This document shows, one piece after another, positions 1,472 through 40,931 of a DNA stretch of 64,000 bases. The translations under genes and the position numbers were made by a program. How positions within the stretch are numbered: position 1 is the first letter of the stretch; every line of letters starts with the position of its first letter. The stretch covers positions 337,863 through 401,862 of the forward strand of contig NZ_FPBO01000002.1 in the NCBI RefSeq assembly GCF_900116645.1. Direction: 5' to 3'. Source of the DNA: Pseudoduganella namucuonensis. Lineage in GTDB: Bacteria; Pseudomonadota; Gammaproteobacteria; Burkholderiales; Burkholderiaceae_D. The notes below the pieces were generated by a model. It saw only the letters and a program-made list of their open reading frames with translations, was not told where the DNA came from and made no database searches.

Positions 1472-3409
1472 TTGCGTTTCCGCTACTCAAGTTCACTTTC
1501 CCGACCCACTCCTTTGATCGAAGCGCTCACCTCCCTGTTCCGGCGCCTGCCGGCCGCATCGCCGGCGGTGATGCGCGCGGCCATCACGCTGGCGGCGCTC
1601 AGCGTGGCGCTGTGGGCGCAGTGGCTGGCGCCGCCCGGCGCCTCGCTGCTGGCCGACGAGTGGCTGCGCGACCAGTACATCCAGTTGCAGCAAACCGACG
1701 CGCCCGAGCCGCGCGTGCTGGTGGTGGACATCGACGAGCAAAGCATGGCCGCGCTGGGGCCGTGGCCCTGGCCGCGCGCGCGCCTGGCCGACCTGGTGGA
1801 AACCCTGCTGACCACCTACGGCGCGCGCGGCGTGGCGCTCGACATCGTGCTGCCCAACCCGGCCGACGCCGAGGGCGACGCCCGGCTCGGCATGCTCGCG
1901 CGCCACGGCCCGCTGGTGCTGGCGCAGGCCTTCGACTACAGCCCGCACCGCCCCTACACCTTGCGCGAGGGCCAGCCCGCCGGCGCCCTGCCGGAGGCGG
2001 CCGGCCACGCCCATGCGGCCGAGGCCACCGGCTACATCGGCAACCAGCCGGCCTTCGCCGACGCGCCGCACGTGGGCAACATCGGCTTCATTCCGGACCC
2101 GGACGGCGCGCTGCGCCGCCTGCCGCTGCTCACGCGCTACCAGGGCAGGCTGTACCCCGCGCTGAGCGTGGCGCTGATCAATTGCTGCGGCGGCGGACTG
2201 GCCCACGTGCCGGCCGCCCCGCAGCGCGTGTCGTATAAACGCGACTGGACCGCCTACACCGTGGTGTCGGCGGCCGACATCCTGGCCGAGCGCATCGCGC
2301 CGGCCAGCGCCAGCGGCCGCCTGGTGCTGGTGGGCTCGTCCTCGCTGGGGCTGAGCGACCGGGTGGCCACGCCGCTGGCGGCCAACCGCCCCGGCCTGGG
2401 GGTGCAGGCGGCCATGCTGTCCACCCTGCTCGACCGCCAGCAAGGCAAGGCGCCGGCGCCCTGGCCCGGCCGCTGGATCGGCAGCCTGTACGCGCTGCTG
2501 TGCGTGGTGCTGGCCGCGCTGGCCCTGCCGCGCCTGCCCGCCGTGGCCGGCGTGGGCATGCTGGCGGCGCTCACCGCGGCGTGGCTGGCGCTGGCCTATG
2601 TCATCAGCCCGCACGATCCCGCGTTCTCGACCACCGGGCCGGTGGCCTGCAACCTGTTCCTGCTGGCCGTGGCCGTGCCCTACCACTGGCAGCTGACCCA
2701 GCGCCGCTCGCGCCACCTGCTCGACACCCTGCGCCAGTACGTGGCGCCGGCCGTGGTCGACGAGTTGCTGCGCAGCGACATCGAGGACCCGCTGGCGCCG
2801 CGCCAGCTGGAGGTGACCACCCTGATCGCCGACATGGAGGGCTACACCACCCAGGTCGAATCGCTGCCGGTGAGCGAGGCGGCGCGCCTGACGCGCGACT
2901 TCCTCGAATGCCTGACCGGCCCCGTGATCGAGGCCGGCGGCACCCTGGACAAATACACCGGCGACGGCCTGGTGGCGTTCTGGGGCGCGCCCCTGCCCAA
3001 CGCCGGCCACGCCGACCTGGCGCTGGACGCCGCCTCCGCCATCGTCGAGCGGGTGCGGCAATACAGCCGGCTGCGCGAGGCCGAGGGCCGCCCGCCGCTG
3101 CGGGTGCGCATCGGCATCGACAGCGGCCCGGCCTTCGCCGGCGATTTCGGCACCGCCTTCCGCAGCATTTACACCGCCGTCGGCGACAGCGTGAACACGG
3201 CGTCGCGGCTGGAACAGGCCGCGCGCGACTATCCGCATGACATAATCATCGGCGAGGGCACCGTGGCCCACGCCCGGCGCCACCACTTCCTGCCGCTGGG
3301 CGAACGCCAGCTGCGGGGCAAGGAAAAACGCACTATCTTGTATACGTTGACACCCGATATGGATTTCTCCGCACCGTCCGCCGCCGCCCGTCCCGAGGCC
3401 GCCGCGTGA
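1472..3409 (+). CDS. CHASE2-domain class III adenylate cyclase
   Basis: About 645 residues. An N-terminal membrane helix (around 35-52) is followed by a periplasmic CHASE2 sensor (about 60-320, with VVDIDEQSMAALGPWPWPR typical of its start), three membrane helices (about 335-408) and a C-terminal class III cyclase domain (about 445-620). Metal-binding Asp residues are visible in IADMEGYT and YTGDGLVAFWG. The Lys of LDKYTGDG and the Thr of YTAVGDSVN fit ATP as substrate, and the transition-state Asn/Arg are in SVNTASRLE. It probably makes cAMP in response to an unknown periplasmic signal. The start is uncertain: TTG at 1472 is the longest frame, and TTG 1514 or GTG 1567/ATG 1570 are alternatives. 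Its stop overlaps the next start (GTGA), so the genes are co-transcribed. Confidence 0.9.
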   Translation: MRFRYSSSLSRPTPLIEALTSLFRRLPAASPAVMRAAITLAALSVALWAQWLAPPGASLLADEWLRDQYIQLQQTDAPEPRVLVVDIDEQSMAALGPWPWPRARLADLVETLLTTYGARGVALDIVLPNPADAEGDARLGMLARHGPLVLAQAFDYSPHRPYTLREGQPAGALPEAAGHAHAAEATGYIGNQPAFADAPHVGNIGFIPDPDGALRRLPLLTRYQGRLYPALSVALINCCGGGLAHVPAAPQRVSYKRDWTAYTVVSAADILAERIAPASASGRLVLVGSSSLGLSDRVATPLAANRPGLGVQAAMLSTLLDRQQGKAPAPWPGRWIGSLYALLCVVLAALALPRLPAVAGVGMLAALTAAWLALAYVISPHDPAFSTTGPVACNLFLLAVAVPYHWQLTQRRSRHLLDTLRQYVAPAVVDELLRSDIEDPLAPRQLEVTTLIADMEGYTTQVESLPVSEAARLTRDFLECLTGPVIEAGGTLDKYTGDGLVAFWGAPLPNAGHADLALDAASAIVERVRQYSRLREAEGRPPLRVRIGIDSGPAFAGDFGTAFRSIYTAVGDSVNTASRLEQAARDYPHDIIIGEGTVAHARRHHFLPLGERQLRGKEKRTILYTLTPDMDFSAPSAAARPEAAA

Positions 3410-4665
3410 GGTTCGCGCGCATCCCCTTCCCGCCGCGGCGCCTACCGGCCGCGCTGCTGTCCGCCCTGCTGGCCGCCGCGCTGGCCGGGCCGGCGCGCGC
3501 GCAGGCGCCGGCGCCCGAGGCCCCGCCGCCCGACGGCCAGGTGCAGGACCTGTACCAAGAGGCGCTGCAATCGATCGCCGAGGGCCGCAAGAACGACGCC
3601 AACGCCACGCTGCAGCGGGTGGTCGACAAGGAACCGCTGCACGCGGGCGCCTGGCTGGACCTGGCGCTGCTGCAGTGCAGCCTGGGCCGGCCCAAGGAGG
3701 CCGAGCGCCTGTTCAACATCATCGAGCAGCGCTTCGACCCGCCGGCCGGCATCGTGCAGCTGATCGCCGACACCCGCACCAACGGTTGCGGCGACTGGAC
3801 CCCGCTCAGCCAGTACAGCGTGAGCCTGGCGCGCGGCATCGACCAGAACGTCAACCAGGGTTCGACCCGCGACCTGGGCGTCAACACCGATTCCCTGACG
3901 CCCGAGTTCCGCCCCCAGCACGACCAGTACACCATGCTGTCGGCCGACTACATGCGCGACCTGACGCCGAACGGCACGCTGGGCTTCGCCCAGTTCCAGG
4001 GCCGCCGCAACGACCAGCTGAGCCAGTACGACAGTTCGGCGCTGTTCTTCGGCGCCGAGACGCCGTGGCGTTTCGGCCGCTGGACCGTGCGCGGCACCGT
4101 GCTGGCCGGCTTCGTCACCCTGGGCAGCAAGTTCTACCAGCGCCAGGTCCAACTGCAGGGCCGGGTCGGCCCGCCGGTGCCCTTGCCCTACAGCCTGCAA
4201 TTCCACATGGTAGGCAGCGTCAGCCGCATCGGCTACGTCACGCTGGAGAACTTCGATTCCACCACCGGCGAGCTGCGTGCCATGCTCAGCCGCCGCAGCG
4301 GCGACACCTCGGTCAGCGCCAGCGTCGGCGCGCAGCGCGACCGCGCGATCGGCGACCGGCCCGGCGGCGACCGCGACGGCGTGTCCGTCAACCTGAACTG
4401 GCGCCACCGCTACGGCGGCGGCGTGACGGCCGATTTCGGCTACAGCCTGCAGACCTGGCGCAGCAGCACGCCGTACGCGCCGACCGTGATCGAACAGGTG
4501 CGGGACCAGCGCACGCACACCCTGCGCGGCACCTTCACCTACCCCGTCACGCGCAACCAGAACCTGATCCTGGAACTGCGGCAGGTGGTAAACAAGGAAA
4601 ACATCCCCATCTTTCAGTACAATAACCGCCAATTGCAATTAAGCTGGCAGTGGCAGGGTCTGTGA
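3406..4665 (+). CDS. TPR/beta-barrel outer-membrane protein (Slam/DUF560-like)
   Basis: A 419-residue exported protein. It has a signal peptide (about 1-33, ending PARAQA), a TPR-like helical domain (about 45-120: LYQEALQSIAEGRKNDANA, GAWLDLALLQCSLGRPKEAE), then about 280 residues of alternating amphipathic strands ending in QLQLSWQW, as in outer-membrane barrels. ISLARG/DQNVNQGS-like wording at the first strand resembles Slam (surface lipoprotein assembly modulator) proteins, which have the same TPR-barrel order. Slam proteins move lipoproteins or other cargo to the cell surface; no obvious cargo gene is adjacent here. The GTG start at 3406 overlaps the cyclase stop by 4 bp. The family assignment is a recognition of architecture, not proven. 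Confidence 0.65.
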   Translation: MRFARIPFPPRRLPAALLSALLAAALAGPARAQAPAPEAPPPDGQVQDLYQEALQSIAEGRKNDANATLQRVVDKEPLHAGAWLDLALLQCSLGRPKEAERLFNIIEQRFDPPAGIVQLIADTRTNGCGDWTPLSQYSVSLARGIDQNVNQGSTRDLGVNTDSLTPEFRPQHDQYTMLSADYMRDLTPNGTLGFAQFQGRRNDQLSQYDSSALFFGAETPWRFGRWTVRGTVLAGFVTLGSKFYQRQVQLQGRVGPPVPLPYSLQFHMVGSVSRIGYVTLENFDSTTGELRAMLSRRSGDTSVSASVGAQRDRAIGDRPGGDRDGVSVNLNWRHRYGGGVTADFGYSLQTWRSSTPYAPTVIEQVRDQRTHTLRGTFTYPVTRNQNLILELRQVVNKENIPIFQYNNRQLQLSWQWQGL

Positions 4666-19317: not shown

Positions 19318-21401
19318 ACCTCAACGACACCGCCCTTCTCTCCGCCGGCATCGGCGCCGGCGCCGGCCCGCGGCGCGCCGGCCGCGCCGCGGGCGCCGCC
19401 CTGCTGCTGGCCATGCTGGCCGTCTTCCTGCACCTGACGCTGCGCGACCGGGGCCTGTACCCGATGGTGTTCGCCGACGAATGGCTGTACGACCGCTACG
19501 CGCGCCTGGAGCCGCTCAGCGCCAGCGTGCTGCCGTCCTACCTGTACCTGAAGCTGTTCGGGGCCACCTCGGCCTGCGGCGCCGGCTTCCTGGACTGCGC
19601 GCGCATGCTCAACGCCGCCCTGTTCGTGCTGGCCGCGCCCTTCATCTACCTGGTGGCCCGCCCCGTGACGGGCCGCGCCGCGGCGCTCGCCATCGCGGCG
19701 GCCAGCATGCTGGCGCCGGTCAACAGCTACACCGCCTACTTCATGCCGGAATCGATGTACTACCTCGGCTTCTGGGTGGTGAGCTGGTGCCTGCTGTCGG
19801 CGCGCGGCGGCGTCGGCCTGGCGGGCGGCCTGCTGGCCGGGGCGCTGCTGGGCGCGATGGCCGTGGTGAAGGTGCACGCGCTGTTCCTGCTGCCGGCGCT
19901 GGCGCTGTTCATGCTGTGGCGCGGCTGGACACAGGACGCCGCGCGCGCCGCCCTGGCGGGCGCGCTCGCGCTGGCGGCCAGCGCGCTGGGCGTCAAGCTG
20001 GCGCTGGGCTGGCTGCTGGCCGGCCCGAACGGCCTGTCCATACTGGGCAGCTTCTACGGCAACCACGCCAACGGCGGCGGCGAGGGCGCGCTGGCGCGCC
20101 TGCTGCCGCCGGCGCTGGTCAACCTGCACGGCCACGCGATGGCGCTGATGCTGCTGTTCGCCGTGCCGCTGCTGGCCTTCGCCGCCAGCGCCGGCAGCGC
20201 CGCCGTGCGGCGCGAGCTGGACCGCCCCGGCCGCGCGCTGCTGGCCTACACCGTGCTGGCGCTGGGCGCGGCGCTGGGCATGACGGTGGCCTTCACCGCC
20301 TCCATCGCCCACATCGGCCCGCTGGAAGGGCTGCGCCTGCACCTGCGCTATTACGACTTCGCGTTCCCGCTGCTGGCCATGGCCGCCGCCTCCCCTGCGC
20401 TGGCGCAGCCGCAAACCTTGGCGCGCCGCTTGGCGCTGGCGCTGCCCTGCGCCGCGCTGCTGGCCTACGCGTCGCTGCGCATCCTGCCGGCGTACTCGCT
20501 GTCCTACGTCGACGGTCCCGAGGTATTCAATGCGACGTATGACCGCAATACGCGCGCCATGGTGGCCGGCCTGCAGTTGCTGGTGATCGCGCTGTGGGTG
20601 TGGCGGCCGGCGATCGCGCGCGCCGCTTTCCTGTGGCTGCTGCTGCCCATGTTCGCGTACAACTCCGTCACGGTGTCCAGGGAATTGATGGCGCGGGGCG
20701 CGCAGCCGAACGCCTACGACTTGGCCGGCCAGTACGCCTACCGCGCGCTGCCGCCCGAGCGGCGCGGCGAGCTGGCCATCGCCGGCGCCGAGCCGTCCGG
20801 CCTGGCGCGCGCGCAATTCAACGCCGACAGCGCCGCCATCGCCGCCATCGAGCTCGCGCCCGGCTCCGCCTTCGAGGCCTACCAGCTGCCGGCGCGCCGC
20901 AAGATGCTGTTGCTGGTGGGCCCGCACGCGCTGCCGCCCGAGATCAAGGCCGAGCGGGTCGCGCAGGACGTGGCGCTGGTGCGCATGGACGTGCCGTACC
21001 GGCCGCTGCACCGCCTCGACTTCTCGCGGCCGCTGGCCGCGCCGGTGGAGGGCGTGCAGGGGATGGAGGAAGCCGAGTCGTGGGGCCGCTGGTCCAACGC
21101 CAAGCAGGTGGCGCTGCGGCTCGCGCAGCCGCTGCCGCACAGGCTGGCGCTGTTCCTGGACGCGCGCGCCTACGGCCCCAACGTGGGCCAGGAGTTCGTG
21201 CTGACGGTGGGCGGCCAGCAGCGGCGCTTCAAGCTGCGCGACAATCCGCAGGAGCTGTACTTCGAGTTCGACACCGACGGCGCGCAGCGGGACATCGCGA
21301 TCACCGTGCCGGCGCCCACCGTGCCGGCCGAACTGGGCCAGGGCAACGACAGTCGCGCCCTGGGCATGGGCTTGATCAGCATGGAGATCGGCCAGCGCTG
21401 A
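19314..21401 (+). CDS. Second polytopic membrane protein, probable GT-C-type glycosyltransferase
   Basis: 695 residues. About ten to twelve helices up to residue 470 are followed by a soluble C-terminal domain. The first periplasmic loop has PMVFADEWLYDRYARL, with an acidic pair where GT-C enzymes place their catalytic Asp/Glu, and ACGAGFLDCARMLNA follows. ATG 19314 is chosen because it overlaps the GtrA stop (ATGA). It probably uses the sugar flipped by GtrA to decorate the exported polymer or a lipid. It is the last gene of the operon and faces the acyltransferase gene, with 27 bp between their ends holding GC-rich inverted repeats. Confidence 0.65.
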   Translation: MNLNDTALLSAGIGAGAGPRRAGRAAGAALLLAMLAVFLHLTLRDRGLYPMVFADEWLYDRYARLEPLSASVLPSYLYLKLFGATSACGAGFLDCARMLNAALFVLAAPFIYLVARPVTGRAAALAIAAASMLAPVNSYTAYFMPESMYYLGFWVVSWCLLSARGGVGLAGGLLAGALLGAMAVVKVHALFLLPALALFMLWRGWTQDAARAALAGALALAASALGVKLALGWLLAGPNGLSILGSFYGNHANGGGEGALARLLPPALVNLHGHAMALMLLFAVPLLAFAASAGSAAVRRELDRPGRALLAYTVLALGAALGMTVAFTASIAHIGPLEGLRLHLRYYDFAFPLLAMAAASPALAQPQTLARRLALALPCAALLAYASLRILPAYSLSYVDGPEVFNATYDRNTRAMVAGLQLLVIALWVWRPAIARAAFLWLLLPMFAYNSVTVSRELMARGAQPNAYDLAGQYAYRALPPERRGELAIAGAEPSGLARAQFNADSAAIAAIELAPGSAFEAYQLPARRKMLLLVGPHALPPEIKAERVAQDVALVRMDVPYRPLHRLDFSRPLAAPVEGVQGMEEAESWGRWSNAKQVALRLAQPLPHRLALFLDARAYGPNVGQEFVLTVGGQQRRFKLRDNPQELYFEFDTDGAQRDIAITVPAPTVPAELGQGNDSRALGMGLISMEIGQR

Positions 21402-38302: not shown

Positions 38303-38330
38303 GAAAAAAAGCCAACCCCGAAGGGTTGGC
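38303..38330 (-). terminator. Terminator of the tRNA-Ile transcript (bidirectional)
   Basis: GCCAACCC-CGAA-GGGTTGGC (38311-38330) is an 8-bp stem. On the minus strand it is followed by eight T (38310-38303), 13 nt after the tRNA end. On the plus strand five T follow (38331-38335), so it can stop transcription from both sides. Confidence 0.9.
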
Positions 38331-38342
38331 TTTTTCATTATA

Positions 38343-38626
38343 TGGTGGGCCTCCCGTGAGTCGAACACGGCACCAACGGATTCTGGTTTGTGTGACTTTC
38401 GCCACTCCCTGGACTATGCCTTCACCATAGCTCGCGCCTTAGGTGGGTGCCGTCTAGTCTCTACACCTTCAACGGCGCTTTCGCGCCGGAGCTTGGCTCG
38501 GCGTTGCCATCCACATTGCTGTGCTTAGGTTTCGCCGAATTTGACACCATCCCTTACGCGGTTTCCCAATCGTAAGGCACAAATTTTATGAGTCCGCTGC
38601 TCTAACCAAGCATGAGCTAGAGGCCC
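38343..38626 (-). tRNA. ileX: tRNA-Ile(CAU), interrupted by a group I intron
   Basis: Exon 1 is 38626-38588 (39 nt, ending at the anticodon ...ACTCAT) and exon 2 is 38382-38343 (40 nt, including encoded CCA). Joined, they fold as a complete cloverleaf: acceptor GGGCCTC/GAGGCCC, D stem GCTC/GAGC, anticodon stem GCGGA/TCCGT with loop CTCATAA (anticodon CAT), and T arm CCGTG-TTCGACT-CACGG. CAT plus these identity features and the match to the known Azoarcus host tRNA indicate the minor Ile tRNA whose C34 is changed to lysidine by TilS and reads AUA; tRNA-Met is less likely. It lies just downstream of rpoD on the same strand and has its own promoter and terminator. The symbol is by analogy with the E. 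coli minor Ile tRNAs. Confidence 0.93.
38383..38587 (-). ncRNA. Azoarcus-type group I (IC3) self-splicing intron
   Basis: The 205-nt intron sits between anticodon base 36 and base 37. It starts AAAATTTGTGCC, where GTG is the internal guide that pairs with exon CAT (U-G at the splice site), and ends in G before exon 2. Segments match the Azoarcus ribozyme as I remember it: GGGATGGTGTCAAATTCGGC, GAAACCTAAG, GGCAACGCCGAGCCAAGC, GAAGGTGTAGAGACTAGACG, GCACCCACCTAAGG, GGTGAAGGCATAGTCCAGGG and AGTGGCGAAAGTCACACAAA. GAAA tetraloops are present at the P2 and P9 positions. P5, P6 and P8 tips differ but keep pairing. No homing endonuclease frame is present. Confidence 0.93.
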
Positions 38627-38660: not shown

Positions 38661-38689
38661 AGCATAGGCGGAACGCCGGCTCCCGTCAA
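38661..38689 (-). promoter_or_regulatory. Sigma-70 promoter of tRNA-Ile
   Basis: On the minus strand TTGACG (38689-38684), 17-bp spacer, TATGCT (38666-38661). Predicted start is near 38654, about 28 nt before the tRNA 5' end. It begins 5 bp after the rpoD stop codon, so the tRNA can be made independently of rpoD. The CGGGAGC...GCTCCCG inverted repeat at this place may also slow rpoD readthrough. Confidence 0.7.
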
Positions 38690-38693
38690 GTGC

Positions 38694-40931
<2,238 letters not shown>

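Follow-up and report, generated by a model that had tools for sequence, protein, structure and literature searches.

Anticodon loops are a known location for bacterial group I introns, and among these the intron of the Azoarcus pre-tRNA-Ile(CAU), which we take to be of group I subclass IC3, serves here as a point of comparison. The accessible part of the tRNAscan-SE 2.0 paper (PMC8450103) gives examples of bacterial anticodon-loop group I introns, reports them in the tRNA-Ile2 of Acidovorax and Burkholderia and states that the finder was not designed for them, so that the occurrence of Ile2 introns in Burkholderiales and their being missed by tRNA finders are already known from that text. Severed tRNA halves, islands and integrases are absent from its description of these introns. 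A different kind of system, the tRNA-dependent lysogeny of actinobacteriophages, is set out in the available sections of PMC10865867: a tyrosine integrase uses a core of ∼10 bp, the host tRNA is not rebuilt, and the phage carries a cognate tRNA, with Ile2-CAT among the target tRNAs. The nearest idea in print, as far as the accessible text extends, was proposed for an archaeal tRNA-Thr (PMC3293823). There, in one community genome, a tRNA fragment lies upstream of an intron-bearing tRNA, and the proposal, citing Randau and Soell, is that a mobile element carried the intron and that the site is shielded from further integration; the disruption of archaeal tRNA-Thr is also mentioned in the available part of PMC8371274. 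Our literature search, which covered few subscription journals, found no paper that connects the group I introns of bacterial tRNAs to integrating elements or to rescue tRNAs. The new part of the present work is the severed halves and islands of the relatives, not the intron itself.

The gene under study lies in a stretch of 64,000 nucleotides from Pseudoduganella namucuonensis (the whole stretch analysed is called the window). An earlier note, made from the letters alone, had read a tRNA-Ile(CAU) gene split by a group I intron beside rpoD, and both the sequence and ARAGORN bear out its coordinates and strand. The features of the locus are as follows.

38343-38626, minus strand: intron-split tRNA-Ile(CAU) gene (ARAGORN intron mode and sequence reading)
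38588-38626, minus strand: 5′ exon of tRNA-Ile(CAU), nt 1 to U36 (sequence, ARAGORN)
38383-38587, minus strand: group I intron, 205 nt (RF00028, 47.5 bits; covariation across 35 introns)
38343-38382, minus strand: 3′ exon of tRNA-Ile(CAU), A37 to CCA (sequence, ARAGORN)
38578-38580, minus strand: GUG guide, the 5′ splice-site partner of the CAU anticodon (sequence; present in 35 of 35 aligned introns)
38455-38459, minus strand: 5′ strand of P7, partner 38412-38416 (hand-placed covarying structure)
38412-38416, minus strand: 3′ strand of P7 (hand-placed covarying structure)
38397-38400, minus strand: GAAA tetraloop of L9 (sequence)
38661-38689, minus strand: promoter-like pair TTGACG-17-TATGCT upstream of the tRNA (9 of 12 consensus matches, judged by consensus only)
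38304-38335, minus strand: hairpin and T run directly 3′ of the tRNA, a likely terminator (sequence; not reported by a simple terminator scan)
38694-40931, minus strand: rpoD, the upstream neighbour of the tRNA (NF004208, 951 bits against a cut-off of 555)

In its default mode ARAGORN lists no tRNA in the window, and with introns allowed it recovers the split tRNA-Ile(CAU) with its intron of 205 nt after U36; the earlier note had given this position and length and had foreseen that a finder unaware of introns would overlook the gene. The intron mode also agrees with the placement that we read for a viral locus (L104) and for the Gordonia phage Daredevil, but not for L107, G612 and G307. Family models confirm both dnaG and rpoD. 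The rpoD stop lies 67 bp from the split gene, and the promoter-like pair begins 5 bp past that stop, where the tRNA promoter had been placed before.

The insert in the tRNA-Ile(CAU) gene is an Azoarcus-type group I intron, predicted from its sequence to be self-splicing. A covariance search with RF00028, the check that the earlier note had proposed, gives a match at 38390-38599 that covers the whole model (47.5 bits, E 3.6e-11); because this score falls just under the curated gathering cut-off of 50 bits, a default Rfam scan of the window is empty. The GUG guide, the GAAA loops (L2, L6 and L9) and the terminal G that had been noted are all in the intron, and the CAU anticodon and the guide form the U.G pair that, together with a last base G, marks the splice sites of a group I intron. 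We placed 56 pairs by hand, including the P3/P7 pseudoknot, on an alignment of 35 introns that contains the one from the window. In this structure 94.8% of the cells are paired and two-sided changes occur at 34 of the 56 pairs; none of 500 shuffles scored as high, and slid controls pair at 26-41%. Covariation thus backs the P3-P9 core with its P7 pseudoknot, a fold that simple folding of the intron did not show. This intron and that of Azoarcus share the gene, the position after U36, a similar length, the GUG guide, the GAAA loops and the terminal G, whereas the peripheral tips differ; the 3′ strand of P5 in the window reads GATGG, as it does in L072 and L078. Like the Acidovorax and Burkholderia introns named in the accessible part of PMC8450103, it is a group I intron in a tRNA-Ile2 gene of Burkholderiales.

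The split gene is the sole tRNA-Ile(CAU) detected in the genome. The 66 tRNAs listed for the draft include four with anticodon CAU, of which two are identical and elongator-Met-like and two identical and initiator-Met-like, and the uninterrupted Ile2 arm finds no match in the draft at up to one mismatch; the second, uninterrupted copy that, according to the earlier note, would make this one dispensable was therefore looked for and not found there. The gene is a CAU tRNA additional to the initiator and elongator Met tRNAs, and the genome encodes tilS (family model), the combination expected for Ile2. The assembly (103 contigs, 98.9% complete, 5.36% contamination) is incomplete, since its tRNA list lacks Ile(GAT) and Ala(TGC) as well. 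The cell presumably requires the split gene. Once the tRNA is spliced, TilS would place lysidine at its C34, and it would read AUA codons.

An exact-pattern search of 84,980 species genomes returned 48 stretches, by title mostly from Betaproteobacteria, with a few from Opitutae/Verrucomicrobia and gammaproteobacterial MAGs; counting the window, 46 of 49 loci hold a complete intron, the closest to that of the window being from Pseudoduganella aquatica (95.6%) and a Propionivibrio MAG (91.2%). Within the genus, an intact Ile2 arm is present in 64 of 74 genomes and the intron of the window (>230 bits) in 5, with no genome having both. The remaining five comprise G307 and G332, which have other introns in the Ile2 gene, G327 and G328, which are 60% and 83% complete, and the one-contig genome G300, where neither an intact Ile2 arm nor an intron-model match was found. 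The end of rpoD lies 50-263 nt ahead of the anticodon in all 24 intact congener loci that were read; at one locus of the genus (L187, genome G283) two intact tRNA-Ile(CAU) genes that differ in type stand 733 bp apart behind rpoD. In a family sample of 294 genomes, intron-model matches at E <= 1e-6 occur in 50 and exceed 220 bits in only 5, and on reading several of the weaker ones sit in Arg(CCU)- or Leu-like genes. Genome G248 gave a weak match too. The exact intact Ile2 arm is found in 258 of these 294 genomes, searched with no mismatch since two mismatches also catch tRNA-Lys. Across the 15 genomes of named loci with the intron there is no intact gene at up to one mismatch, the six matches all being halves.

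Many relatives carry a piece of a second tRNA-Ile(CAU) beside the intron-bearing gene. Upstream sequence (a span of 420 bp) was sufficient at 47 loci and too short at two more; at 24 of the 47, a severed 5′ half that reaches the anticodon loop lies 123-215 bp upstream of the intron-bearing tRNA, at two (L076 and L033) the half is decayed, and at 21, including the window, there is none within 420 bp. The half scores are bimodal, 24-39 versus 11 or less, with L076 at 18; at L059 the top-scoring piece lies 311 bp off, ahead of a run of N, with another at about 124 bp. A control on 24 intact congener loci, made with a stricter exact pattern, found no severed half. Four elements have a half of the native tRNA at each end. 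In Duganella rivi (L073) the native halves, of GAGGA type, are 2,447 bp apart and enclose a complete GCGGA-type tRNA with its intron, and the repeat TTAGGCTACAAATTAGGCTACA occurs close to both ends of the element. The halves are separated by 3,689 bp in Massilia atriviolacea, where the element encodes an AIPR/AbiU-like protein, and by 3,742 bp in Pseudoduganella violaceinigra, where the rescue gene is on the opposite strand. When the halves from these three species are joined as empty sites, ARAGORN recognizes three CAU tRNAs. The fourth element, in a genome of the same genus as the window (G307), is an island of about 15.8 kb that retains its integrase, in the order rpoD, native 5′ half, intron-bearing tRNA, 462-residue integrase, AAA ATPase, type ISP restriction enzyme, small tyrosine recombinase and native 3′ half; a second 3′ half 1.6 kb beyond the first may be the trace of an older element.

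At all four elements the sequence common to both junctions includes CTCATAA, the seven-base anticodon loop. An integrase, a short core within a tRNA, a split host tRNA and a complete cognate tRNA are the marks of a tRNA-dependent element, and G307 shows all four, whereas the elements of D. rivi, M. atriviolacea and P. violaceinigra show all except a detected integrase. Given the severed halves upstream and the elements bounded by native halves, the intron-bearing tRNA of the relatives is likely to be the rescue copy of such tRNA-dependent islands. They resemble the actinobacteriophage system, as described in the available sections of PMC10865867, in the integrase, the core within a host tRNA, the host tRNA left unrestored and the cognate tRNA carried. 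They differ from it in their betaproteobacterial hosts, in a cargo of restriction and defence genes without phage structure genes in the islands read, and in a rescue tRNA that mostly holds a group I intron, which is partly due to our having searched by intron. In the archaeal tRNA-Thr case, going by the accessible text, introns are removed by proteins, whereas the bacterial islands have a ribozyme intron and are seen at many loci, with integrases and with both ends visible.

By tblastn, a motif scan having given none, an integrase of ∼470 residues was detected downstream of the intron-bearing tRNA in L031, L040, L062, L064 and L069, and a further six loci hold partial copies of it. The same family occupies this place in G386, G612, G397 and G307. 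Pfam finds an integrase domain in L204 and L207 and an N-terminal integrase domain in L203, whereas the proteins of L206 and G307, which lack a Pfam match, take their name from their similarity to relatives with one. A search by integrase only, with no selection for introns, was positive in 13 of 399 genomes of the order. Five of the 13 have a severed half and, after it, a rescue tRNA, which holds an intron in G386, G612 and G397 and none in G535 and G594; an intron is thus not needed for rescue, as two of these five genes lack one. In G423 the tRNA is intact and no half is present, and in the other seven no tRNA-Ile2 occurs in the stretches read, some of which adjoin tRNA-Lys or tRNA-Phe. The introns of G612, G397 and G332 are of another kind, placed before the anticodon (33/34), and that of G307 is of a third kind, at 36/37, so that, with kinds judged by reading, the introns of rescue genes fall into three or more kinds and occupy two positions of one anticodon loop. 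Three further loci were noted. Limnohabitans parvus II-B4 (L204) has intron-bearing tRNA-Ile(CAU) genes at 3214-3420 and 19469-19675, which stand 16 kb apart and enclose an integrase and a type I restriction system. On the Comamonas aquatica plasmid pB1A (L243), an IS3 transposase and a type I restriction system flank a fragment (4001-4122) made up of a 3′ portion of the intron and part of the 3′ exon. The Bordetella phage vB_BaM-IFTN8 (L124) carries a tRNA-Ile(CAU) 3′ exon (2501-2543) next to an integrase, and this copy is likely to be a canonical attP.

Two scans of viral contigs yielded 17 distinct loci with the intron family of the window (L104-L120), several of them near-copies; 14 have anticodon CAU and three (L112, L113 and L118) are Leu-like by reading. 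Some of the contigs encode terminase, UvsX, tail-fibre or endolysin family matches and others nothing telling. According to the available part of a 2014 review (PMC3984707), all phage introns observed by then were in protein-coding genes. On the intron tree, 11 phage introns need four changes, two of them forced by supported branches, and one groups with Polynucleobacter introns (98/96); a single clade for the eleven is not rejected by the AU test (p 0.069). Phages were considered as the direct source of the intron in the window and set aside, as none of the 11 viral loci examined has a severed half or ACTCATAA nearby. Two peptide patterns found no relatives of the island integrase in viral contigs. 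The Gordonia phage Daredevil (L121, NC_048021.1) has, at about 2210-2690, an unannotated tRNA-Lys(UUU) interrupted by a group I intron (80 bits with the model built here; the split gene is also placed by ARAGORN), 154 bp from an attP-like 15-bp copy of the tRNA-Lys anticodon arm and near an integrase. The clear plaques that Daredevil forms, as reported in the available sections of PMC10865867, speak against its intron-bearing tRNA rescuing lysogens, and in the accessible text of a 2024 paper, of two related phages only the one that is not Daredevil encodes its own tRNA. Intron-model matches were also seen in apparent unannotated tRNA genes of Agrobacterium phage Atu_ph07 (L123) and of the 595-kb phage LR756511.1 (L122), in the latter beside an HNH-like reading frame.

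We consider it probable that the split sole tRNA-Ile(CAU) of the window belongs to a kind of gene that islands have delivered in relatives, as a likely rescue copy whose intron likely hides the attachment site, and that the copy in the window perhaps derives from one. An island would recombine into the anticodon loop of the intact tRNA-Ile(CAU) of its host, leaving the host gene as a 5′ half and a 3′ half, and its own complete intron-bearing tRNA would likely rescue the cell. With the intron placed inside the seven-base loop common to host site and island, the rescue gene would likely be no attachment site for its own or later integrases, and after splicing would still yield a normal tRNA. Both intron positions (33/34 and 36/37) interrupt the shared loop, and because the intron cuts the core used for integration, the rescue gene is likely hidden from integrases. 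A clean copy such as that of the window may go back to a rescue gene that underwent a deletion between the two 5′ halves or recombined with the native gene.

The window itself has no severed half beside the tRNA (best upstream score 7), no second half in its 64 kb and no integrase near the tRNA, and its tie to the islands is by kinship only. Its copy is clean, in the same rpoD-linked place as the intact gene of congeners, an arrangement found also in L072, L055 and others, which would suit an old, ordinary intron of this tRNA-Ile(CAU), inherited vertically, lost many times and unrelated to the islands. The introns of the window and P. aquatica pair on the tree (98/98), P. aquatica also has the nearest rpoD among 30 loci (94.7%) and a clean intron, and a single clade for six Oxalobacteraceae introns is not rejected by the AU test (p 0.068). 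We regard this account as unlikely, though deserving of some weight, given an intron confined to 5 of 74 congeners against 64 with an intact gene, the intact gene of L195, which is next in rpoD identity (94.0%), and the foreign-type intron-bearing tRNA beside a severed native-type half in D. rivi and L031/L068. The clean or split state needs 7 changes on the intron tree, against a shuffled mean of 14.4 and minimum of 8, and is hence inherited, yet has switched several times. The possibility that the severed halves are remnants of tRNA duplication and decay rather than integration junctions we find very improbable. Half and complete gene are nearly identical in several loci and a displaced 3′ half was retrieved for a minority only, but the two differ in tRNA type in L031, L068, L073 and L044, displaced 3′ halves complete the native tRNA, the breaks fall at the anticodon loop, repeats flank the D. 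rivi element, and integrases lie downstream of the rescue gene. That the gene of the window is a dead pseudogene, with an unassembled intact copy serving the cell, is hardly credible: the assembly is a draft that misses other tRNAs, but none of the seven congeners with an intron-bearing Ile2 gene has an intact arm, and the exons, core and splice sites of the window gene are sound. On the choice between vertical and lateral inheritance, which the earlier note had wished to see compared, the genus pattern, the shared rpoD-linked place and the severed halves in the relatives speak for intron-bearing tRNA genes having been delivered whole by integrating islands, the window supports shared descent with P. 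aquatica and nothing further, and the trees are undecided (AU p 0.068 and 0.069).

As to what the intron does in such islands, we tentatively propose, at somewhat less than even confidence, that group I ribozymes serve to cloak attachment sites. An island targeting the anticodon loop of an essential tRNA would, in this view, carry the replacement tRNA with a self-splicing intron in its crossover core, so that the DNA would go untargeted while the RNA stays normal. The islands might instead carry the intron-bearing tRNA as a rescue gene in which the intron is a neutral hitchhiker that hides nothing. This is a real, if lesser, possibility, favoured by the intronless rescue tRNAs of G535 and G594, by the viral contigs that share the intron with no ACTCATAA core or severed half nearby (0 of 11) and by the anticodon loop being a known site for such introns. 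Set against it are the three or more kinds of intron found at two loop positions in these rescue genes, and the changed stem of both intronless rescue genes, which have CGACTCATAATCG in place of GGACTCATAATCC. In G397, moreover, the native half and the intron-bearing tRNA have between them another half, which has the native core and resembles an intronless rescue gene severed in its turn. The changed stems and this second half fit a protection of the rescue gene from integrases, the independent cases being few.

How small bacterial tRNA introns persist and spread without homing endonucleases is an old question, to which the loci read here suggest a possible answer. They further suggest that tRNA-dependent integration occurs in Betaproteobacteria, a point left open in the available sections of PMC10865867, and that the rescue tRNA and the severed host tRNA both escape annotation. 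If the cloaking proposal is true, small bacterial tRNA introns would have a selected function, which would account for their spread without homing enzymes; different introns at different positions of the loop would be convergent solutions, and the Gordonia phage Daredevil would be a parallel case.
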